DNA of 34,111 nt from a virus. Positions within the stretch are counted from its first letter, which is position 1; every line of letters begins with the position of its first letter. Shown one piece after another: positions 1,199 to 29,488 of this stretch. The notes beneath the pieces were generated by a model, which worked only from the letters and a program-made list of their open reading frames with translations, did not search any database and was not told the DNA's origin. Where the stretch lies: positions 1-34,111 of the IMG/VR virus record IMGVR_UViG_3300042090_003264; one strand, written 5' to 3'. The position numbers and the translations under genes are program-made.

Positions 1199-4100
1199 AT
1201 GCGCAAGCTCACCCTAGCCCTGCTCTTGCTCGCGATTCCCGCTCTTTCTCTAGCCGGAACTTACACCGCCGCAACTTGCAACTACAGCGACGTGAACGCC
1301 CTGGTGAACGGTCCGGCTCACACCGCGGTGAACGGCGATGCGATCGTCATCCCGCCAGGTTCTTGCACCTGGACCAGCACGCTGAACGTCGCCACTGCGA
1401 TCACGATCACCGGAAGCGGAACAGCCAACACCGGTTCATCGACGTTCGGCGCGGGCAATTCGACCACGGTCATAATCGAAAATGTCGGCAGCAAGTACAC
1501 CCCTCTTATCTCTTCAACGGGGCTGACCTACGGACAGACCTTCGTTGTCGAACTGTTGGACATCGAACCCGCTTCGGGCAGCGCTCAGATCGGGCCGCCG
1601 ATCGAGGTGAACGCGACCTGCACCTCAAGCGGCTGCGGACAAGTCCGAATCGATAACATCTACTTCGGCAAAACCACCGCCTGGACTTCCGCGAATGGAA
1701 CCGGCTCGCTCATAATCGTTGACAATGCTTTCGGCGTCGCGGACCATAACTCGACGAATCCGGGCATGAACGGCATTTTGGAATTCATCAATCCGATGTT
1801 GACTTCCTACCTCGGAGTCGGGACTTACGGCGATAATTCCTGGGCTCAGCCGGACACCTTCGGAACCGGGAACGAGTTTTACATCGAGAACAACGTCATC
1901 TATACGGGCGCGACCGTCTCCGAGGGCGAGTTCTCCCTTCAATCGAACACGGCCGTCGGCGGCGGCCGAATCGTCGGCCGCTTCAATCAGGTAAATGGCA
2001 CGACGCCGCAGGATGGCGCATTCAGCTTTCACGGTCTCGATACAGCGTATCGATCGCGTGGCGGTCGAACGATCGAGGCGTACGGAAACACATTCAATTG
2101 CACGCTTTCGAATTGCGGTGAAGCGCCGGTTAATTTTCGCGCGGGGACTGGATTCTCGTTCGGCAACACGTTCACCAGCACGGGCGGCGGCGCGTGGAAT
2201 TCCAGCGTGAACGCCAATATCTACCGAACGGTATACGGCACGCAGGGAGGCTGGGGATATTGCGGCGGCAATGCGGGCGACAGCCCGACGAACAGCGTTT
2301 ACGACACGAACAGCTCTTCGACTTTTCCATCTGGAAGCGCGACATCGGTTTCGAACGGGGGCTTGACACTCACCGATACTTCGAAGACCTGGACCACGAA
2401 TCAGTGGCACCCCGGCGCCGGTACTGAATATTCCATCGAAGACATCACCCAGCATTTCTACTCTCAGATCACGGGCAACACTTCGAACGCCATAACGATC
2501 GCAGCGCCGATTTCAGAATCCGGTTGGACTGGATTCAACTCCGGCGATACTTACCAGATCTTCCTGCCGATCAACTGCGTCGATCAAGCCGGCCGTGGTC
2601 AAGGTGGCTATGTTTCTGGCGTGCCACCGTCTCCTGCTTCTTCCGTGGGTGAAGCGCTGGATCCGATCTACACATGGGACAACACTTCGACTACCAGTCC
2701 GAAATACGATTACGCGGAACTGACCTTTAACGGCCTGGTTACCTACAACCGCGACTATTATTCAGATCTGGCGAACGGAAGTCCCCACGCGCAAACGTCG
2801 GCAACTTCTCCTTTCACCGGGTCGGCGACCGTCGGCAGCACGGCCACGCCTGGCGTTGGATTCGGAACGCTCGCAAACCGTCCGGCCAGCTGCACGGCAG
2901 GCGTCGGTTACTTCGCTACCGATCAAGGCAATTGGAACAAGAGCGGTAATTCGTTTGGACAAGGCGTCCTCTATACGTGCGGCGCCAGCAACACATGGAC
3001 GGCCTATTACACGCCTTACACCTACCCCCATCCGCTCACGACGCCCGGTCCTGCGTGGCCGATCAAGATATCGTCCAATGGGCGATATTTTGAGGATGCG
3101 AATAGTAATCCTTGGATCATGAACTGCGATGCTGCGCACGCGATGATCGGCGGCGTCGCAACCAGCGGGTATCCCACGTATTTCAGTTCGCGCGAGTCCT
3201 ACGGTTTCAATTGCACGCAAGTCTTTGGGAGCACTCTCAGATTTAATACCGCCGGCTCGGCTTACGACGGTACACTGCCCTTTAACACCGGTTCCGGCCC
3301 ATCCAGTTATGATCTGAGCACGCCCAACACGACTTATTGGGGCTATGTTCATTCGTTTTGCTCCCAGGCCCAGAGCGCTGGAATGGCGTGCGCTTTAAAT
3401 CCCTTACCGGGGCAATATTACGACTGCAATGGCACCTGCAACGCCTCGGGAAGCGGACCAGCATTCGCCAATAACCAAACGGTCGTTTCGGGCCACACCA
3501 AAGTCTACAATTTCGCCGCCTGGCTGGCCGGGCAATTAAGCGATCTCAATAACGTGATCTGGTACGTCGGGGACGACTGCGGCCAGAGCAACAGCCCCTC
3601 GGGTGGCGGTTCTTTCCAGTGCAACGCTTCCTACGAATCGGATTTCGTGAACGGGCTGTTGAGCGCCTACCCCAACACCATCGTTATGTTCGAGGGCGCG
3701 TACTTCTATAGCTACTCGAATATGTATGCGTCGAGCTTCAGCGCGTCCTCGGGCTCGCATTGGTCGGATCTGCTCTATACCTATTACGAAACGTACGGCG
3801 CGGCCAAAGCCGCTTACGCCTCATCGCCCACCTCGCCCTGTTTCCTGGGGGAAGCGAATTACGAAGGCGGCAATAACACCAACGATCTCACGATGGCGGC
3901 AACCGCCTACATCCTCAGGATGCAGAACTGGTGGACCGTCACCTCGGGCTGCATCGGCGGTTGGGTGTGGGGCAATGCATCGGTCAATCACAACGATTCC
4001 GGTTATCCGGCTTCGCTCACCACGGCGGCGACCGGAGAAGTCGGATGGACGTCCTATCTGCTCAGCCAATACAATTGGTGGACTGTCGTCCCGGACTCAA

Positions 4101-9222: not shown

Positions 9223-10227
9223 ATGCCTACTCGTATTCAGAATGCCTCTATCGGTTTGGGCATAACCGCGCAAACCAATATTTCGACGCCGGCCAGCTCG
9301 ACCACCTACATCGTCGTGCCCAAGCTCGACAACAATATCTACGTGGACGATTTCGGGACCGAGAACAACGCGGCGTGGATTGGCAAAGGAAATGAATTTG
9401 CGACGCAGGTCTTCCCGACCGCGTTCAACATGGCCGGCAGCATGGAAAAGTACGGCGGCATCGAATTCATGACCTGGGCCTGGGCCGGCGCGCTCGGCAA
9501 CATTGCGTATGCGAGCGGCAGCTATACCCTCGTGCCGATCAATCCCGCGACCACGCTCGAGATGCCCTACTTCCCGGTGGTTCTGCAGTTGCCGGAAGGC
9601 GGCGGAATGGCGATCGATGAGCTGTATGTCGGCTGTTCGATTGAGGAAGTGATGACGGCCTTTCAGTACGGTCCAGGACTCCAATCGGTCAAAACCACGG
9701 TTCAGTTCGCTGGATCCGGACTGCTCACCACTCCCTCCGGCGTCACGCTACCGGCGACGCTGACCGAACACAATGCCCTATCCTCGTCGATGACCCTGAC
9801 GATCAATGGAACCGACTACGTAGCCGGAAAGACGATTCTCTCCGGAGTCTTCGGCTGGAAGAATAATCTGCTGCTCAACGCCGGCTACTATCCGGGTTCA
9901 GGCCTGCAGGACGGCGCGGCGGTTCGCGGGCGCCAGGAGATCGGAGTGCGTGTCCCGACCTTCACCTTCGTCGCGCGGCTGCTGCACACTTCTCCTGAAT
10001 ATGCGGCTCTGATCGCACAGACGACCGGAACGGCGGCTTGCACGCTGACCTATGATTCGACGCACAATTTCACCTGGAACTGGGAGCAGATCTCCTACAA
10101 GATGGTTCACCGCGGGCAGGCGGATGGCATCGCGACCGTCGAGGTGACGGTGCAGCCGCAGTACTCAAGCAGCCTCGGGATCTTGAGTTGCACGGCCATG
10201 TGCGGGCTGACAGGCATTTCGGCTTAA
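9223..10227 (+). CDS. Major tail tube protein
   Basis: The 334-residue product has the organisation of phage tail tube proteins (Phage_tube_2-like): a short N-terminal arm, an insertion-rich centre and many beta strands. Examples are FATQVFPTAFNMAGSMEKYGG, MTLTINGTDYVAGK and FTFVARLLHTSPEYAAL. The end has GQADGIATVEVTVQPQYSS, the type of closing strand seen in tube proteins. Its position before the tail assembly chaperones and tape measure gene is the canonical siphophage order. The ATG follows an AAAGGT ribosome binding site at about 7 bases. It would polymerise in hexameric rings around the tape measure protein. Family assignment rests on fold pattern and context, not on a search. Confidence 0.78.
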   Translation: MPTRIQNASIGLGITAQTNISTPASSTTYIVVPKLDNNIYVDDFGTENNAAWIGKGNEFATQVFPTAFNMAGSMEKYGGIEFMTWAWAGALGNIAYASGSYTLVPINPATTLEMPYFPVVLQLPEGGGMAIDELYVGCSIEEVMTAFQYGPGLQSVKTTVQFAGSGLLTTPSGVTLPATLTEHNALSSSMTLTINGTDYVAGKTILSGVFGWKNNLLLNAGYYPGSGLQDGAAVRGRQEIGVRVPTFTFVARLLHTSPEYAALIAQTTGTAACTLTYDSTHNFTWNWEQISYKMVHRGQADGIATVEVTVQPQYSSSLGILSCTAMCGLTGISA

Positions 10228-10802: not shown

Positions 10803-11453
10803 ATGTACGGAGAATTGCAAACACTGAAAACCAAAGACGGACAGGAGATCCAGGGATTTCCCGTCCATATCCTGAGGCCGGAAAAGTTCGCGGTCCTGCG
10901 TCTTCCGCGCAACGATGAAATGATCGAGTATCTGGAGAAACAGCGCTCGCTCTACCGCGATTTGGGAGGACGCAAGGGCGAGCCGGAATCGGTCCCGAAC
11001 CCTCAAGCCGATCTGGCCCTGTTTCATAAGCTCCGGCTCGACAAACCGAGCGATGCCTCGCAAGAATTCGACGCAGCGGAAGCCGGCAAGGCGCTGGCGC
11101 TGATCACGCGCCAGAAGATCGACTCCTGCCAAAGAGAAGGCGACGGTTTCCGTATCACGCTCAAAACCATGTTCGGCCCCACCGTGCATGTGATCAAGAT
11201 CCCTTTTGAAAAAGACCTTTCGCTCTATCGTTCCACGGTCTACAAATCGCGCGATCTCCCGCACAATCTCGAGGAACGCCGCTTTCCCCCGGACGCTCCC
11301 GTCCGCCTCTACGACTCGGCGATTGAGTCCATCGCGGGATATACCCCGGATTTCAAACCCGCCGACGTTCCTCCCCATCACAAAGCCGCCGTTGTCTTCG
11401 AGCTGGTCAGCGCCATCAACGATCTCGATCCGGCGCTCGACCCAAACTTTTAG
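10803..11453 (+). CDS. Tail assembly chaperone, short form (gpG-like)
   Basis: The 216-residue product lies between tail tube and tape measure genes, the position of lambda G-type chaperones. It is a soluble, charged protein with no membrane segment. The open frame extends upstream to 10674, but ATG 10803 is preferred: it follows AAAGAGG about 11 bases upstream and begins a normal-looking sequence (MYGELQTLKTKDGQEIQGF). The gene ends at TAG 11451-11453, immediately after a canonical slippery heptamer. In this family the short form is made by most ribosomes and coats the tape measure protein before tail tube assembly. Function is assigned from position plus the frameshift architecture. Confidence 0.75.
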   Translation: MYGELQTLKTKDGQEIQGFPVHILRPEKFAVLRLPRNDEMIEYLEKQRSLYRDLGGRKGEPESVPNPQADLALFHKLRLDKPSDASQEFDAAEAGKALALITRQKIDSCQREGDGFRITLKTMFGPTVHVIKIPFEKDLSLYRSTVYKSRDLPHNLEERRFPPDAPVRLYDSAIESIAGYTPDFKPADVPPHHKAAVVFELVSAINDLDPALDPNF

Positions 11454-11923
11454 CGCCGGACGACTGGCCCGATCCGGTCCCGCTCCGGCTCCTCCTTTAC
11501 AGAATCCTGCGCGCTTCAGATCCCCTCGACAAGGGTGGGGTCTGTCTGGGGGGCGATAAAGGGCCACGCGGCTGCCCCGCATCTTCGAGCGCCCTGTGCG
11601 GAAGATGCGGGAATCTCTGGCCGCCCAGAGATTTTTACCGGCCTGGAGCGTGCCCGAACTGCATGAGCCAGTTGGTATCGATTGCGCGCTGCGAAAGTTG
11701 CCCGCTCGAGCAGTTGGATTATATGCGCGGACGCTCGGCGGCCGGACGCTCGCTCGAACGCATTTTGCAGCTCGATTTCATCTTTCCGCCCGGCGCCGCG
11801 CTGCCCTGGGGCGAACTGACGGCCGAAGAGATCTCAGGATTAAAGATTCTGCGCCAGGAGCGCGACCGCTACACGCGAGAAAGGATGCCGCAGACGAATG
11901 CCCCTGTTCCAGACCAGAATTAG
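10803..11923 (+). CDS. Tail assembly chaperone, long form by -1 frameshift (gpGT-like)
   Basis: Reading shifts by -1 at CCCAAAC (11441-11447) and continues from CTT at 11447 to TAA at 11921-11923, giving 215 + 158 = 373 residues. The -1 frame is open with no stop from 11327 to 11920; I checked it codon by codon. The added part begins LLAPDDWPDPVPLRLLLYRIL. It then holds C248, C258 and three CxxC pairs (C266/C269, C284/C287, C297/C300), then a helical end with SLERILQLDFIF and ISGLKILRQERDR. Long forms recruit the tail tube protein in lambda. The Cys cluster suggests a zinc ribbon, which is not a standard T-domain feature. The end overlaps the next gene by 26 bp. Confidence 0.8.
11441..11489 (+). 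promoter_or_regulatory. Programmed -1 ribosomal frameshift signal
   Basis: The heptamer C CCA AAC (11441-11447) fits X XXY YYZ in the zero frame: P-site CCA can re-pair on CCC and A-site AAC on AAA. A 7-base spacer follows that includes the zero-frame TAG. A two-tier stem-loop comes next: outer GCCGGA (11455-11460) with TCCGGC (11484-11489), inner GACTGG (11462-11467) with CCGGTC (11474-11479), containing one T:G pair and a six-base loop. Heptamer, spacer length and structured stimulator all match the known design. Confidence 0.85.
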
Positions 11924-12362
11924 CCGCGCCCGGCTCGTCTACAGTCCTTTTTCTTCCGAGCAGATGGCGCAACTGGGCGAAATTGTCGCGCGCAGCATTC
12001 GCGAGCGGATCGAGCGGGGTGAAAATGTCGAGGATGCGCAGGCGAAACCTCTCAAGCCAGGCCGGACAGTCAATGGGCATCAACTGCGCGGCTACCCGGA
12101 CTATAAGACTGCGCGCGGATTACAGCCCATCCGGGATTGGACCTGGACCGGACGGACGCTGCGGTCGCTGAAGGTTCTGAGCGCCAATGAGAATCGCGTT
12201 GTTATCGGATTCGCGGACCGGATCGCCGATCTGCGCGCGCATTTGAACAACCGGCGGGAGAAGGCCTTTGGAATTTCACCCAAAGATCGCCAGGCGTTGA
12301 ATGCGGCTGTGCTGGCGCTGCTGAAACAAGTACGAGTGGTTAGTTTTCGAAAAGCGGCTTAA
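11898..12362 (+). CDS. Tail completion / virion morphogenesis protein (GpS/gp10-like)
   Basis: The 154-residue basic protein contains a helix that is generally found in virion morphogenesis proteins (FSSEQMAQLGEIVARSIRERI). It has a central TGRTLRSLKVLSANENRVVIGFAD segment and the near-terminal signature NNRREKAFGISPKDRQAL. The last is close to the 'R-x-F-L-G-L-S-x-x-D' motif of GpS/gp10-type tail completion proteins. It is usually encoded near chaperone and tape measure genes and helps finish the head-tail interface. It overlaps the chaperone long form by 26 bp, implying translational coupling. Family assignment is from motif memory. Confidence 0.65.
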   Translation: MPLFQTRISRARLVYSPFSSEQMAQLGEIVARSIRERIERGENVEDAQAKPLKPGRTVNGHQLRGYPDYKTARGLQPIRDWTWTGRTLRSLKVLSANENRVVIGFADRIADLRAHLNNRREKAFGISPKDRQALNAAVLALLKQVRVVSFRKAA

Positions 12363-12555: not shown

Positions 12556-15500
12556 ATGGGAAGCTTCGGCGGAGGTCTGGAAACAGTAGGGATTGAATTC
12601 GATCCCAGAAGCATCTTGCAGGGGATCGAGCGCGTAAACCAGGATTTGCAGACGCTCGAAAGCGGGAGCGAGAAAGCCACCGGGCAATTGCAACGAGACT
12701 GGACCAGCGTGGTGAATGTGCTGACGCGCGTTTCGGACCGCTCGAAAAACGCGGCGGATTCCTACATCCGGTCGCTCGAAAAACAGGCTGCTGCGGTGGG
12801 GAAATCGGGGATCGATAAACTGAATGCCCAGATGGAGCAGGCCATCAAGAATTATGGGTATTCGGCGTCGGCGATTGAGAAAATCACGGCAGCCTACGAA
12901 AAGTTGCGGAAGGCGCAGGAGCCCGCCGAACATCCAGGCGAGAAATTCAAGGAATTCGGCGAAGGCATTAAAGAGTTTATCGAGTCACCCGCACAAGGAG
13001 CGCAGGGGGCCTTAGTCGGACTGTTTGAAAAGATCGGACCTGTGGGGGTTGCACTCGGGGCGACGGTCGGAGTGGCCGCCGCGCTGGGAGCTGGAATGTT
13101 TGAGATTGTCGAAGGCGCAGGGCGCGCCGCTCGCGAACTCGATAATCTCGCGAAGCGAACGGGATTGAGCACAGAAGAAGCCGAGAGGCTTTCCATCGCG
13201 GCGAATCTTAGCGGCGTGAATATCGGTTCGCTCGAAAAATCGGCCGTGGGCCTCTCCAAAGCCTTGGAGGATTCGACCGGCGCCGGCAAGGGGCAAGCCA
13301 AAGCGCTGGAGGAGCTTGGAATCGCAACCCACACGTTCAATGGCGCGCAAAAGGAGGAAGGCGAGATTCTTCTGGAGGTTCTCACCAAGCTCTCCGAAAT
13401 TCCCGAGACGGCCAAGCGCGTTTACGAAGCGCAATTGCTGCTCGGTAAAGGAGCTAAGGAATTGCAGCCGATGATCCAGGATCTACCTCGGCTCAGGGAG
13501 GAAGCAGAGAAACTCTCGGCCAGTCTGGGGACCGGAGTCAATGAACAATTGCTCAAAGCAGACTCTCAAATCAGATCTCTTGATACGGCCTGGGAGGTCT
13601 TCAAGAAGAATCTGGCAGCTAAGATCTCACCTATCGTGATTCCCGTCGTATATGCGCTCGGCAATGCCTTGGCTGGTCATCCCGATGCCCCGCAGCAGCA
13701 GCGCTGGATCGTTTCGCTCGGCAGGCATCGTACTGCGGAAGCGGCTCGCTATACGGCCCTTTTGGAAAGAGGGTTGCCGTTACCCGGCGGATATTTCGCC
13801 GCGGGCGCTTACACAAATCCAGCAGTAATCCAATCGCTGAGTAACTACACAGAGTCTATCCGCGCTGGGGACTCACTTGGCCAGCAGCTTAAAGCCCAGC
13901 ACGATTCCACGAAGTCCGGGTTAGAAGAGCTACTCTCCGAACAAAGCAAGATCGAAAAAGAGAACTACGCAATCACACAGCAGTCCGGCGTCGGGATCGA
14001 GGCCAAGACCGAGGCTCAGAAAAAGATGAATGCGGCCATCGCCCAGGAAGAACAGATCCGGCAGCGCATTAAGGATTTGGAGGATTCAGGGAAACAAGTG
14101 AAGCAGTACGTCGGCCCCGTGGAAGGCCAAGAAATCATTCAGTACCACCAGCTCCAGCAGCTCGCGACAGCCATCCCGAATCTTCGCAACCCCGGAAACA
14201 ACCTGGAAGACGTAAAGGACTGGTTCGAACAATATAAGGAACAACAGAAAGAGCAGGAGGCCGCGCAGAAGGCCACGCTGTCGTTTGAAGAGCAGATGAT
14301 CAAGCTACGCAACGGACCGGACGGCGAGCTCGCGACCGTCAAACAGATTTACGATCTGCGCATGTCCGCCGCGACTTCGGTACTGGAACAGTATCAGGCC
14401 GGGCTCGACTATCTGAAGCAAATGGCCGAGCTACAATCCAAAGCCGATCAGGAGCATCAGGCTGAATTGGATAAGCAGGCCAAAGAGCAGCAGAAGATGC
14501 TCGAAAAAGAGCACGATCAGATCGCCAAAACAGCCTCCGGGCTGTACGACACGCTTCTCACTCATCCATCCAACTTCGCCCATCAGCTCGGGGATACTTT
14601 GCGAAAGAAAGCCACCTCATCGGCCTCCGATCAGTTGGGCGAGATCACCGCGAATATTCTGGTACCAGGCGGGGTGAAGCACAAAGACCCCGTCCAGGCG
14701 ACCGATCTGAATACCCAGGCCACCATCCAGAATTCGCAAGCGGTGATGGCGATGACGGCGCATCTGGCCGCGCAGCTCGGTGTAAGCGCGCCCTCGATAC
14801 CGGGAGCAAGCGGACTCGCGGGCATTACGGTCCCGCCCGTCGCGCATTCGGGCACCACTTCGCTTCCTTACTTCGGCGCGAGTTCGCCCCTGTTCACGGG
14901 AAGCACCAGCACGGTTTCGCTGCCGCTGCCTGGGGGCGGAGTGGTTCCGGTTCCTTATTTTGGATCTTCTGCTGCTCCCTCAGGAACCGCGTCGCTCGGG
15001 AACGCGCCCGCTGTCGGCGGGGGAAGCGGACGCTACGGCAGCATTTCGAGTGGTGGGACGGGCTTTTCGCTCGGCTCAATCTTGGGCGGCGGGAATCCGG
15101 CTTCGATGATCGGACCAGGAGGCACCTCGGGATTCGCGGGACCTGTTGGCGGTTTGCTGCGGATCGGCGGCTCAGGGGGCGGCTTCAATCTGGGGAGTTT
15201 GTTCGGACACGGCCCTAATCCTGGGCCCGACGCTACTCTTCAGCCAGGCTGGACCGGAAACGTGGCGCCGCCGCCGGGCGATTATTCGGGCATAGGCTAT
15301 ACACCAACGCCCAACCCCGATGACATCACCGGGGGAGCTGCCAGCGGAGCTTCCACACTCAGCACCGTGGGCGGGAGCCTGGCCAACATGGGAGCGAGTG
15401 CCGGGATCGCATTCGGATCGCAGATTGCCATGCACGGACTGACAGGGCGCGATGAAGGAACCGCGCCTGGAATCGGATGGGGAGCTTTGGGCGGGGCCAT

Positions 15501-16176
15501 GACCGGGGCGGGAATCGGGTTTGAATTGGGTGGCCCGCTCGGCGCGGGCATCGGGGCCGGCATCGGCGCGGCCGCCGGAGCTCTCGCGGGCCTCGGAGAA
15601 CTTCTGGCCGGAGTCATGAGTCCGCAAGCCAAGGCCAAGATGTACGCCAAGCAGCTCTACGGCATCACGATCAATGACAATATGCAGAATCAGATCGTGA
15701 ACATCGCCAATCAATCTTACGGCGGAAACATCCAGCTCGCCGTCCGCTCTCCGCAAGTAAGACAGATGCTTGGTCTCTATGCCGCCGGCACTGGGCAGTC
15801 CAACGCGAAGGCGCTGATGAATAGCACGCCGCATTCGGCGGGCTTGTCGGAAATGAACGGGACTCTTTATCAGGATGCGTCTTATCTGTACGGGAATTCG
15901 TACAAGTATCAGTCGAATCTTCCGACGCTTGGCGGAAATAATTCCACGACGACCTACAACTCACCAAATGGTTACGCGGGATCGAGTTCGCCACAAACGA
16001 TTTCTCTCGGCGGGCTCTCCGTGAATATTGACGGCAAGGGCTCGGCGGACTTTCTCGCCGGCAACGTGGTTACCGATGATTTCGTGCAGCAGCAATGGAG
16101 TAGTTCGCAGATGTACTCGAACGGACGAGTTTCAAACAGCGCCTTGATTCAGGACCCTGGACTGATTACCGCCTAA
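12556..16176 (+). CDS. Tape measure protein
   Basis: The 1206-residue product is the longest helical protein in the tail module and sets tail length. Residues 1-130 are coiled-coil-like. A hydrophobic Ala/Gly segment lies at about 163-185 (GVALGATVGVAAALGAG). It is followed by the typical LAKRTGLSTEEAERLSIAANLSG region of TMPs, then ALEELGI and LPRLREEAEKLSASLG. A long Gln/Glu/Lys coiled coil runs from about 430 to 665. A Gly/Ser/Pro-rich linker covers about 770-960. A Gly-zipper hydrophobic stretch lies at about 973-1022 (GAGIGAGIGAAAGALAGLGE). No peptidoglycan hydrolase motif was seen. It directly follows the chaperone genes, as is usual. Confidence 0.9.
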   Translation: MGSFGGGLETVGIEFDPRSILQGIERVNQDLQTLESGSEKATGQLQRDWTSVVNVLTRVSDRSKNAADSYIRSLEKQAAAVGKSGIDKLNAQMEQAIKNYGYSASAIEKITAAYEKLRKAQEPAEHPGEKFKEFGEGIKEFIESPAQGAQGALVGLFEKIGPVGVALGATVGVAAALGAGMFEIVEGAGRAARELDNLAKRTGLSTEEAERLSIAANLSGVNIGSLEKSAVGLSKALEDSTGAGKGQAKALEELGIATHTFNGAQKEEGEILLEVLTKLSEIPETAKRVYEAQLLLGKGAKELQPMIQDLPRLREEAEKLSASLGTGVNEQLLKADSQIRSLDTAWEVFKKNLAAKISPIVIPVVYALGNALAGHPDAPQQQRWIVSLGRHRTAEAARYTALLERGLPLPGGYFAAGAYTNPAVIQSLSNYTESIRAGDSLGQQLKAQHDSTKSGLEELLSEQSKIEKENYAITQQSGVGIEAKTEAQKKMNAAIAQEEQIRQRIKDLEDSGKQVKQYVGPVEGQEIIQYHQLQQLATAIPNLRNPGNNLEDVKDWFEQYKEQQKEQEAAQKATLSFEEQMIKLRNGPDGELATVKQIYDLRMSAATSVLEQYQAGLDYLKQMAELQSKADQEHQAELDKQAKEQQKMLEKEHDQIAKTASGLYDTLLTHPSNFAHQLGDTLRKKATSSASDQLGEITANILVPGGVKHKDPVQATDLNTQATIQNSQAVMAMTAHLAAQLGVSAPSIPGASGLAGITVPPVAHSGTTSLPYFGASSPLFTGSTSTVSLPLPGGGVVPVPYFGSSAAPSGTASLGNAPAVGGGSGRYGSISSGGTGFSLGSILGGGNPASMIGPGGTSGFAGPVGGLLRIGGSGGGFNLGSLFGHGPNPGPDATLQPGWTGNVAPPPGDYSGIGYTPTPNPDDITGGAASGASTLSTVGGSLANMGASAGIAFGSQIAMHGLTGRDEGTAPGIGWGALGGAMTGAGIGFELGGPLGAGIGAGIGAAAGALAGLGELLAGVMSPQAKAKMYAKQLYGITINDNMQNQIVNIANQSYGGNIQLAVRSPQVRQMLGLYAAGTGQSNAKALMNSTPHSAGLSEMNGTLYQDASYLYGNSYKYQSNLPTLGGNNSTTTYNSPNGYAGSSSPQTISLGGLSVNIDGKGSADFLAGNVVTDDFVQQQWSSSQMYSNGRVSNSALIQDPGLITA

Positions 16177-19800: not shown

Positions 19801-21264
19801 ACTTTCGACCTTCAGGAGAGCTATACCCCAAACGCAGATAACTCCGCCACCGCTACACTGCAGCTCACCGGCGCGCAGCCGGTCAACGTCGCGATCCCCA
19901 ACTGCGCCCCGCCCACCATCACCAGCGCGGCCATTGCCTACAGCAGCACCGGAGGCACAATTCCCGGCGGTATTCTGCTCAAAATATCGGTTTGCGGAGC
20001 GAATGCGCAAGGACAGTTAACGCCGCCTTCCAACATCGTTCTGGCCCAGATCCCCACGGGGAGTAACACTAATTCCTTTACGCTCAGCAATATCATCTGG
20101 CCCGGATTCGCCGGACTGACCGGGTATATTCTGTTCGCATCGACTGCCGACGATCTGATCTGCGAGCAGACTTATGGCGCGCTCACGCCCGGCACCCCCG
20201 ACACAACGTATACGCCCACGTCGATTTCATGCGGGAGCTATATCCGCACCGGTTATGCGCTGCCTGATCCCACTATCGCCGGGGTTCGTCCGAAAGGTTC
20301 CTATCTGTGGCACGGCGGCGTACTGGGAGCCGTTGTCTACTCGGTCTCAACTGACACCATCGTCTCGCCTGAGACTATCGATACTAGCGGGCACGACGAT
20401 TGGGCGGGAAGGGTGCTTGCAATTATCGGGCGCCCCAGCGCGAGCATTCCCTTCGCCAGTTTCAATATTACGGCCTTTGACGCGGCGACCGGCACCTACA
20501 CGCTTGATCGGGATCCGACCGGAATCGTCGACGAAGGCGACGTATTTGTCGTTTGCACTTTGGGCTATGACAACAGCTCAGCCCCCGCGGTCCTAACCGA
20601 TTCAGGCTGGTCCAACGCAACCAACGTCAGCGAAGGTTTCCCGAGCGGCGGCATGGTGCCGGGCCAGGAAGTTGGACGTGTGTGCCGTGTCATTAAGGGC
20701 ACAAACCGCGGGATGACGGCTAAAATCATCTCGAATACCCACACCTCGATTACGCTCGATTCGGCCTTCCCAATCGACGCTACCAGCGTTTACGTCATTC
20801 AGGACGCGAGCTGGGCTTACAGCGCGAACGCGCTCTCGATCAATAACGCCATTCAGACCACCGAGACCACGCTCACGCTTCCGGTCGCCAATGCAATTTA
20901 TGAATCCATGCTGGTGGGCGGATTCACGGTCTCGAATCAGGGCGTCGAAGTAAGCGACTTTGATACGCCGTTGCGCATGGTGTACGTTTTCGGAAACGGC
21001 GGGCTGATCCAGCGCACCATCGGCGCAAACGGTAGTCAGGAACTCGATGACGGTTTCATCCAGATCGACGCAAGCGCCGGAAACGTGTCGCTGCAATGCC
21101 TGTCGGCTAAGACCATTCCCGGCCGGCGCTTGATCGTGCAGAAGATCGATTCGACAACCAATCTCGGCAAGATTCTGCCCTTCGCGGGCGAAACCATCAA
21201 CGGGCAGACCGAAATCGATCTGAGCGCCCAGTGGGACACGGCGGAAATCTACTTCATCGGCTAG
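16846..21264 (+). CDS. Fused tail hub protein (gpM-, gpL- and gpJ-like parts)
   Basis: At 1472 residues this is the largest protein. Residues 1-135 resemble the preceding distal-tail protein. Residues about 165-335 look like a DUF2163/gpL-type module ending in VSRFCQNTFNDGITCPYS (C319, C329), a possible metal or Fe-S site as known for gpL. From about 335 to 940 there is a hub/baseplate domain, including WLTEILNCALGYYTFEFGQL (about 737-756) and SWRLKKDWSIEITAKTV then YDLDYGPRP. These resemble the closing part of hub proteins. Residues 960-1472 are beta-rich, fibronectin/Ig-like modules. In lambda these are separate polypeptides; here they appear to be joined. It would seal the tail tip and contact the host. 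Confidence 0.7.
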   Translation: MPDTIGNISVPSFPASGLTFPLVSEFGYAASRPFPVVSHRFGGLATKGTQVFQTGFGPRKFAFKRTNLSITDTNTLENFFEGVQGAFQSFAYDAPQPASASTSAYQVVFENTPLTFERLITACRVGFNFLEVPSGSGSSYTGTAVCTRFPTTSMNSALLGQVQQIVPLLHIRVRDSTVPDIWLSDRRTTLSGSSGIQSAMGWASTSQLYLPRILELGEKGTDYIMSQTISTAGGKADDVSFALGNGDRVMTQLSNSCDLMYASVDLCLYHVQSETLLQLWKGFIQSYQSDGTAVFRIKCSDGMYPVYQLYPNRVVSRFCQNTFNDGITCPYSTVTRPTDIPMSDGTRKTTYTSTAGTTTVGTANPDLCSYLYDDPYDPDNPTISPGGCCQHAMYQYFGGHPLNPQSVQIHDFGNHHDLVTSTSIVSDTVTGQPLPEIWCNQQASGLNAYVTNGLMYDIRDESTFLDGGAIIGAGPLGAYTIVDRVGTQPNGPFTAGNSGEVITNSDGLQILVAPTLDGFPAQGFKESISGSGNITYKSNSNAGLRQVFGYTPIPSTDEGYNQFGLTQTNNPGSSGSTVYNATSPSNNPTQFAAGTAFVEIRIPKNPNPGITPSVPESHSISVQIAQGLAGWTWDYTGTTRTSQIGLTNPFWIAVNSYLRCLSLNGASSSAQLAMINLASLVNNESYTDQYGNSHTGSGAAQIADLSVPALVGSGDETQFQFQGVIGADTQKPLRDWLTEILNCALGYYTFEFGQLTLGIRINANDTTAFTVGNMLYQSLTLTPIQAAFEKLVINFADVEYQYQQNQGYYFDRDHANFYGRGNNPLQAKINSLGISTMSQALRVATTRVREETGGVGQQEWAAARVATFETTILALDTEVGQVISITHPDCPGGYNPDTWVPGTGGTWVNGTSWFRIQSWRLKKDWSIEITAKTVTPSMYDLDYGPRPKDVPPPPLRVLFYPQPQGQWAPGQIQAASNDALYPSEYTFDLQESYTPNADNSATATLQLTGAQPVNVAIPNCAPPTITSAAIAYSSTGGTIPGGILLKISVCGANAQGQLTPPSNIVLAQIPTGSNTNSFTLSNIIWPGFAGLTGYILFASTADDLICEQTYGALTPGTPDTTYTPTSISCGSYIRTGYALPDPTIAGVRPKGSYLWHGGVLGAVVYSVSTDTIVSPETIDTSGHDDWAGRVLAIIGRPSASIPFASFNITAFDAATGTYTLDRDPTGIVDEGDVFVVCTLGYDNSSAPAVLTDSGWSNATNVSEGFPSGGMVPGQEVGRVCRVIKGTNRGMTAKIISNTHTSITLDSAFPIDATSVYVIQDASWAYSANALSINNAIQTTETTLTLPVANAIYESMLVGGFTVSNQGVEVSDFDTPLRMVYVFGNGGLIQRTIGANGSQELDDGFIQIDASAGNVSLQCLSAKTIPGRRLIVQKIDSTTNLGKILPFAGETINGQTEIDLSAQWDTAEIYFIG

Positions 21265-25415: not shown

Positions 25416-25463
25416 GAAAGAGAAACCAAACGGTTTCTCTCTCACGCTCACTCTTCCCTTTTT
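25416..25463 (+). repeat. Dispersed palindromic element, copy C; possible bidirectional terminator
   Basis: A 9-bp perfect hairpin (AGAGAAACC, loop AAAC, GGTTTCTCT) is followed by a pyrimidine arm ending CTCTTCCCTTTTT. It lies between the 3' ends of the tail operon and the convergent reverse-strand gene, where a terminator is expected. Confidence 0.7.
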
Positions 25464-26217: not shown

Positions 26218-26246
26218 AGTATCTCACACCATGGTGTTTCTGTCAA
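26218..26246 (-). promoter_or_regulatory. Promoter with palindromic operator in the spacer (for 26159 gene)
   Basis: On the reverse strand a perfect TTGACA (-35, 26246-26241) is separated by 17 bases from GATACT (-10, 26223-26218). The spacer contains the perfect 12-bp palindrome ACACCATGGTGT. A 22-bp core including -35 part and palindrome is identical at 29336-29357, in front of another reverse-strand gene. A dimeric repressor bound here would block RNA polymerase. Confidence 0.75.
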
Positions 26247-27473: not shown

Positions 27474-27521
27474 GAAAGAGACACCTTACGGTTTCTCTCT
27501 CGCCCTCACTCTTCCCTTGTT
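27474..27521 (+). repeat. Dispersed palindromic element, copy D
   Basis: This is the same element as copy C with a slightly diverged stem (AGAGACACC, TTA, CGGTTTCTCTCT) and the arm CCTCACTCTTCCCTTG. It lies between the convergent 3' ends of the glycosyltransferase gene and the reverse-strand gene ending at 27558. Confidence 0.7.
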
Positions 27522-27895: not shown

Positions 27896-27942
27896 CGGGA
27901 GGGAAGGATGAGTCTGAGAAGGAAACCGCAGGTTGCCTTTTC
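27896..27942 (-). repeat. Dispersed palindromic element, copy E (inverted)
   Basis: Read on the reverse strand this resembles copy F (29441-29488): a stem around CCTGCGG with GGTTTCCTTCTC, then an arm with CTCATCCTTCCCTCCC. It lies between divergent genes (27821 reverse, 28002 forward), so here it is not at a 3' end. Confidence 0.7.
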
Positions 27943-28789: not shown

Positions 28790-28993
28790 TCAACTGGCCT
28801 GGCACACGTGTTTGCGGGCCGCCGCGCGCTTCGCCGTCATTTCGCCGCAGGGGCAGCGCGGCGCGTTGGATCGGGGGCGTCCCGTTCCGGCGCCGTAGGT
28901 TTTGCGCTTCAGGCTATTGCGCCTGGCCCATTCCCGCTTTAAGACTTCGTCGGGGATAGTGGCCGGGTCGATGTTGTCTGTCCAGGATCGCAT
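28790..28993 (-). CDS. Small zinc-ribbon-like protein
   Basis: The 67-residue basic product starts MRSWTDNIDPATIPDEVLKREWARRNS and ends with CPCGEMTAKRAAARKHVC. That spacing of two Cys then His and Cys would bind one zinc ion. I associate small proteins with this IPDEVLxxEWARRN start with Acidobacteriota genomes and phages, from memory. Function unknown, possibly nucleic acid binding. It is convergent with the papain-like gene, with only 2 bp between them. Confidence 0.6.
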   Translation of the reverse strand: MRSWTDNIDPATIPDEVLKREWARRNSLKRKTYGAGTGRPRSNAPRCPCGEMTAKRAAARKHVCQAS

Positions 28994-29440: not shown

Positions 29441-29488
29441 GAAAAGGACACCTGGCGGTTTCCTTCTCGCCTCATCCTTCCCTCCCGA
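29441..29488 (+). repeat. Dispersed palindromic element, copy F
   Basis: This is the same family as copy E: AAAAGGACACC, TGG, CGGTTTCCTTCTC, then CCTCATCCTTCCCTCCC. It is in the 239-bp gap between the divergent starts at 29307 (reverse) and 29547 (forward). The gap otherwise holds the reverse-strand promoter and an AT-rich upstream part. Confidence 0.7.

Follow-up and report, generated by a model that had tools for sequence, protein, structure and literature searches.

A predicted programmed -1 ribosomal frameshift in tail genes of Acidobacteriota phages, with a predicted zinc-ribbon extension and exchanged slip sites

The viral DNA analysed here, a stretch of 34,111 nucleotides that we call the window, is an IMG/VR virus record of an Acidobacteria-type soil phage. 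It very probably employs a programmed -1 ribosomal frameshift to produce a G protein and a G-T fusion, which by gene order are putative tail assembly chaperones like G and GT of lambda. This reading is built on the arrangement of the sequence, its conservation, and the selection acting on the -1 frame and on an RNA hairpin, from which slippage itself, at whatever efficiency, is predicted. The G/GT mechanism is known; a family whose extension carries a zinc ribbon, and the exchange of slip sites within that family, CCCGGAA among them, are apparently undescribed.

Frameshifting of the G/GT kind is widespread in long-tailed phages, despite little sequence similarity among the proteins concerned (PMC5009743). 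As would be the case in the window, lambda shifts by -1 on an X XXY YYZ heptamer (G GGA AAG) close to the end of the gene that precedes the tape measure gene, giving a short product and a fused long one. The window departs from lambda in its heptamer, CCCAAAC, in a G without detectable similarity to known chaperones, in the zinc ribbon of the extension, and in an extra conserved gene between GT and the tape measure gene. Three features of G/GT systems are found here: an in-phase X XXY YYZ heptamer lies near the end of the first open reading frame (ORF) and the -1 frame beyond it is open; the shift site and the -1 protein are conserved in relatives; and a downstream RNA structure at suitable spacing is present, conserved and selected.

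The G-like ORF (10803-11453, plus strand, 216 residues) begins with an ATG preceded by GAGG, and its MYGEL start is common to relatives. Read directly in the frame of ATG 10803, positions 11439-11453 are GAC CCA AAC TTT TAG. The slippery heptamer C CCA AAC occupies 11441-11447 (plus strand; CCC AAA in the -1 frame), and is followed after three bases, TTT, by the TAG at 11451-11453 that ends the short product. A spacer of 7 nt (11448-11454, TTTTAGC), which includes this stop, leads to a nested hairpin at 11455-11489 with 13 pairs (6+1+6) and -18.3 kcal/mol, the presumed stimulator. The T-like extension runs in the -1 frame from 11447 to 11923, 158 residues and then a TAG (11921-11923), so that the fusion would read ...DPN-LLAPDD across the junction. 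Direct reading bears out the initial annotation on the heptamer, the TAG three bases after it, the 158-codon -1 frame and the 7-nt spacer; its placing of the heptamer 'four codons upstream' of the disruption conflicts with its own, correct, three bases, and its two-tier hairpin is present but has 13 pairs rather than 12.

Most ribosomes would terminate at TAG 11451 and release the 216-residue G protein. In a minority, the hairpin that begins 7 nt further on would cause a delay with tRNA-Pro and tRNA-Asn paired to CCA AAC; both tRNAs would move one base back to CCC AAA, and these ribosomes would then translate 158 more codons to give the G-T fusion with its zinc-ribbon extension. Upstream of the slip site the -1 frame is open only back to a TGA at 11324, and direct reading finds no ATG, GTG or TTG in that frame between this stop and ATG 11663; ordinary initiation therefore cannot yield the whole extension. 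The heptamer by itself proves little, since among 8,229 codon pairs the window has CCCAAAC in frame twice (the second at 19827, within a gene), although the copy at 11441 is the only in-frame one no further than 12 nt from where a gene ends. It is the invariance of the heptamer among relatives that carries the slip site beyond chance. No RNA family matches were found within the window.

The surrounding genes follow the order of a tail module: tube gene, G/GT, small gene, tape measure gene, with G lying between the tube and tape measure genes. The probable tail tube gene (9223-10227, plus strand) keeps its place in relatives, its match to Pfam Phage_tube_2 (E 0.075) lying below the cut-off, and the tape measure protein (12556-16176, plus strand) is matched by PHROG 2276, tail length tape measure, at E 2.8e-18. 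The gene between extension and tape measure (11898-12362, plus strand, 154 residues) is conserved, and served as an anchor for finding relatives; in Pfam it showed no likeness to HK97 gp10. Neither G nor the extension of the window matches a known family above cut-off in Pfam or PHROGs, and G found no convincing match in sequence or fold in Pfam, PHROGs, PDB or BFVD. AlphaFold models (pLDDT 85 for G, 83 for the extension) likewise gave no convincing fold match for either, the top structural match in BFVD being the unnamed A0A6M2VCE7 (E 0.003, TM 0.51/0.60). Since known tail assembly chaperones are themselves very diverged, this result neither places nor excludes G. The chaperone role proposed at the outset is thus a putative one, read from gene order and the frameshift arrangement, with no convincing family or fold match for G in these databases.

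Searches with G, the extension and the tail hub against viral contigs and phages returned nothing, and relatives were reached first through the tube protein and then through the neighbour gene at 11898. The tube protein led to eight relatives, and in each of them an ORF in the -1 frame comes after a G-like gene. The neighbour gene led to 80 viral loci and to 8 bacterial loci from assemblies of Acidobacteriota, most of them of Bryobacterales and Solibacteraceae. Later searches, with G alignments and through 257 genomes of one order (46 matched), brought the collection to 196 distinct junctions, which include two or three broken or doubtful G matches (for example L278 and L339). The phase is identical in nearly all 196, drawn from many contigs and bacterial assemblies. 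That the frame change might come from an indel introduced in sequencing or assembly, or from decay of the gene, is suggested by the single virus contig and by the C3A3C tract that the change adjoins; given so many distinct junctions in nearly always equal phase, and purifying selection on both frames, we regard an error or decay as almost certainly not the explanation. The initial annotation had named an unconserved -1 frame and a sequencing indel as outcomes that would count against it; the frame proves conserved and the indel is ruled out by the junctions.

A tree of G (77 rows, with the last three codons excluded) separates three clades: A, which holds the window, B and C. Clade A junctions all carry CCCAAAC, in nearly all cases followed by one codon and the stop; in viral contigs there are 40 distinct ones, and their G proteins share 25-62% identity. 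Clade B carries CCCGGAA with the stop directly after, and is joined, with support of 97/96, by L145, which has GGGTTTT. Clade C consists mostly of Bryobacterales prophages with mixed slip sites. The viral contigs alone contribute 40 type A junctions, 84 with CCCGGAA, 6 altered and 1 with GGGTTTT, while among all 196 junctions CCCAAAC occurs 75 times, AAATTTT 11, GGGAAAC 4 and GGGTTTT twice, with GGGAAAA, GGGTTTC, AAAAAAC and AAACCCT once each. The heptamer with its nested structure had been called specific to this element; both are family traits, the heptamer being that of 75 of the 196 junctions and the nested hairpin recurring in the clade.

Within clade A, CCA and AAC are unchanged in all 26 dereplicated junctions while the flanking codons vary. 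The proline codon is CCA in 26/26, as against 7% of proline codons in the same genes, and across the 40 junctions there is free variation in the type of stop and in the codon that follows the heptamer. The sequences share ancestry, and we therefore withhold multiplied probabilities as a measure of significance and use the varying neighbour codons as the control. The same codons bear on whether a single P-site tRNA slips on the TTT beside TAG (C TTT TAG) rather than two tRNAs on CCA AAC. The window does read TTTTAG, and clade C has a few junctions (AGT TTT TAG, ACT TTT TAG, GAT TTT TAA) that resemble P-site slip sites and would fit single-tRNA slippage on U UUU. The TTT codon is not conserved, however: most clade A junctions have TCC or TCT ahead of the stop (31/40), and CCAAAC never changes. 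Slippage on TTT in the window is accordingly rejected, with scarcely any probability left to it, in favour of a tandem slip on CCA AAC.

Other lineages retain the junction, the phase and the extension with different textbook heptamers, and the type of slip site changes state 17 times on the G tree. In L284 and L297 a site of the AAATTTT type lies eight codons upstream of the stop. This history also speaks to transcriptional slippage, which could in principle give an equal product. CCCAAAC contains no long homopolymer, and what is kept is an invariant unit in codon phase, swapped for other in-phase heptamers and followed by a selected hairpin; we consider it most improbable that the fusion arises at transcription instead of by ribosomal frameshifting.

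The -1 frame itself bears the mark of selection as protein. From the slip site on, pN/pS over its first 24 codons is 0.47-0.50, compared with 0.8-3.0 in shifted frames; counted after the stop and with codon alignment, the first 24 codons give 0.49 in clade A and 0.34 in clade B, and other frames 1.1-1.9. Both frames of the arrangement are under purifying selection. These low values indicate selection for the protein sequence even in the part that precedes every possible start codon. An ATG within three codons is absent from all 40 clade A junctions, and ATG, GTG and TTG are all absent within ten codons in 39 of these 40 and in 78 of the 90 of clade B. A separate gene for the extension, begun by re-initiation or at a start codon of its own close to the end of G, finds some encouragement in clade B, where some relatives have an ATG across or after the stop (ATGA in L009, L055, L058 and L070; TAGCGATG in L003-L006 and L010). 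The general lack of nearby starts tells against it, as does the first -1-frame start in the window, 11663, from which most of the conserved domain would be lost, and it leaves the codon choice in the heptamer unexplained. We judge a separate gene to be very unlikely, and frameshifting remains the reading that we adopt.

Selection on the RNA is seen in the same region. Synonymous diversity falls to 0.34 in the first 12 extension codons, where the hairpin lies, as compared with about 0.6 further on. Taken by itself, the window's hairpin does not stand out from dinucleotide shuffles (z = -1.8 only), and reaches z = -2.38 against shuffles that preserve the -1-frame protein. Against synonymous shuffles the mean z is -2.64 in clade A (control stretch -0.84), weaker at -1.19 in clade B (control 0.29), and -1.92 in clade C. 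In clade A, 88% of the cells of a 14-pair family stem are paired, falling to 39-55% when the stem is slid, and a 9-pair stem in clade B is 96% paired with no double changes. Double changes being few, covariation adds little, and we take the support for the hairpin from the synonymous shuffles instead. In L114 (about 3613-3670), 17 extra codons stand directly after the G stop with the -1 frame still open, and this insert folds into a separate, very stable hairpin (-39 kcal/mol) near the heptamer. The -1 frameshift and its likeness to lambda G/GT, as first proposed, are corroborated by relatives that conserve heptamer, phase, extension protein and hairpin; the alignment of related phages that had been suggested as a check finds both heptamer and hairpin conserved in clade A.

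The extension carries a predicted zinc ribbon at 11543-11701 (plus strand), whose seven cysteines do not change in any of 47 clade A and B sequences. The paired CxxC knuckles and the profile matches are those of a rubredoxin-like zinc ribbon, the best in relatives being Pfam RUBY_RBDX (E 3.8e-6) and Zn_ribbon_LapB (7.2e-5); the window's own extension gives a weak best match (HypA, 0.021), and zinc binding itself is presumed from these patterns. Clade C extensions are about 110 residues long, with one four-cysteine group. Gene finders would call an 86-residue ORF at 11663-11923 (plus strand), an internal piece of the extension that starts inside the zinc ribbon. Its product would drop six of the seven invariant cysteines, which agrees with the warning of a false gene at ATG 11663, and the evidence supports reading this ORF as a fragment of the extension and not as a gene in its own right.

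Clade B presents the clade A arrangement and a similar hairpin with a different heptamer. Its G genes (L003-L010, L043-L097) end in GAC CCG GAA and a stop, as at L044:2793-2802; there are 84 distinct CCCGGAA junctions and 6 with one or two changed bases (TCCGGAA, CTCGGAA, ATCGGAA). GGAA and the adjoining stop are retained in 90/90. Among 49 of these junctions GAA is never GAG, though GAA makes up 22% of glutamate codons there, and CCG is retained in 48. Five clade B junctions have TCG for CCG and one has GAT CCG, variants that a tandem slip would tolerate badly. CCCGGAA breaks the X XXY YYZ rule, and a shift on it needs G·U re-pairing. Followed by an open -1 frame, it matches in clade B, not in the window, the hypothetical 'threetwotwo' motif of PRFect (PMC10885494), drawn from actinobacteriophage annotations, of which CCCGGAA is the commonest form and in which G:U pairing mimics a textbook heptamer. 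The sequence is exactly that of clade B, and differs from the window's. Unlike the PRFect cases, clade B belongs to Acidobacteriota phages, holds the motif nearly invariant across a clade and directly before the stop, and has it in a position homologous to the textbook heptamers of sister lineages, such as the GGGTTTT of L145.

The invariance of GGAA and of the adjacent stop, while CCG is sometimes TCG, suggests a slip by a single tRNA-Glu. Peptidyl-tRNA-Glu alone would slip from GAA to GGA with a G·U pair at the middle position while the stop codon waits in the A site. We lean slightly towards the view that Acidobacteriota phages have often exchanged heptamers and that CCCGGAA in clade B works by this lone slip, breaking the tandem-slip rule. 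Re-initiation at an overlapping ATA or ATG is unlikely in clade B, for the frame would begin at ATA in most members and ATGA is rare (5 of 90 stops being TGA). As a separate observation, where the fourth codon before the clade B stop encodes glutamate it is always GAA (36/36), though GAG makes up 78% of glutamate codons.

Among described systems, Acinetobacter phage Loki gp12/gp13 (PMC5313236) has a predicted frameshift beside the stop and shares a gene order of frameshift, small gene (HK97 gp10-like in Loki) and tape measure, and differs in its heptamer, AAAAAAC. C_CCA_AAG is highly shift-prone in E. coli, and known cases of AAC as the second codon come from haloarchaeal viruses, whose g-t sites (G_GGA_AAC in HCTV-1, A_AAA_AAC in HCTV-2) have AAC as here but belong to archaeal hosts and other proteins (PMC5009743). 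In the openly readable papers searched, we found neither a frameshift on CCCAAAC nor a tail-chaperone frameshift in Acidobacteriota phages. The present results add a large frameshifting tail-gene family for these phages, and the 196 homologous junctions offer a set of naturally varied slip sites within a single gene, through which one can ask what heptamers function in these hosts. Clade B provides comparative support for the CCCGGAA slip site outside actinobacteriophages, whereby a hypothesis so far based on annotation can now be tested directly. In practice, gene callers truncate such genes at the stop and lose the zinc-ribbon half.

Several further observations concern the collection and the window. 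Of the sites whose shifted codon is AAA, 80/81 end in C (AAC) and hardly ever in AAG or AAA. The usual preference in E. coli differs, and host tRNAs may be responsible for the bias. In clade B the T extension is often separated from the tail gene that follows by 1-3 kb of unrelated genes (for example L003:9079-12062); in clade A there is mostly no or little insertion before the neighbour gene. Single Bryobacterales genomes (G003, G457, G463) hold up to six G-like genes, from different clades in G003, and several related prophages thus seem to coexist in one genome. Elsewhere in the window, an element of roughly 48 nt, with an inner stem GAGAAACC...GGTTTCTC, occurs in four copies (25416-25463, 27474-27521 and 29441-29487 on the plus strand, 27896-27942 on the minus strand), and a 27-nt repeat pair lies at 26224 and 29336 (96%); both are possibly terminators or regulatory repeats. 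Positions 28829-28864 on the minus strand are 89% identical over 36 bp to 11793-11828 (plus strand) in the extension gene, a likeness that may be due to chance.
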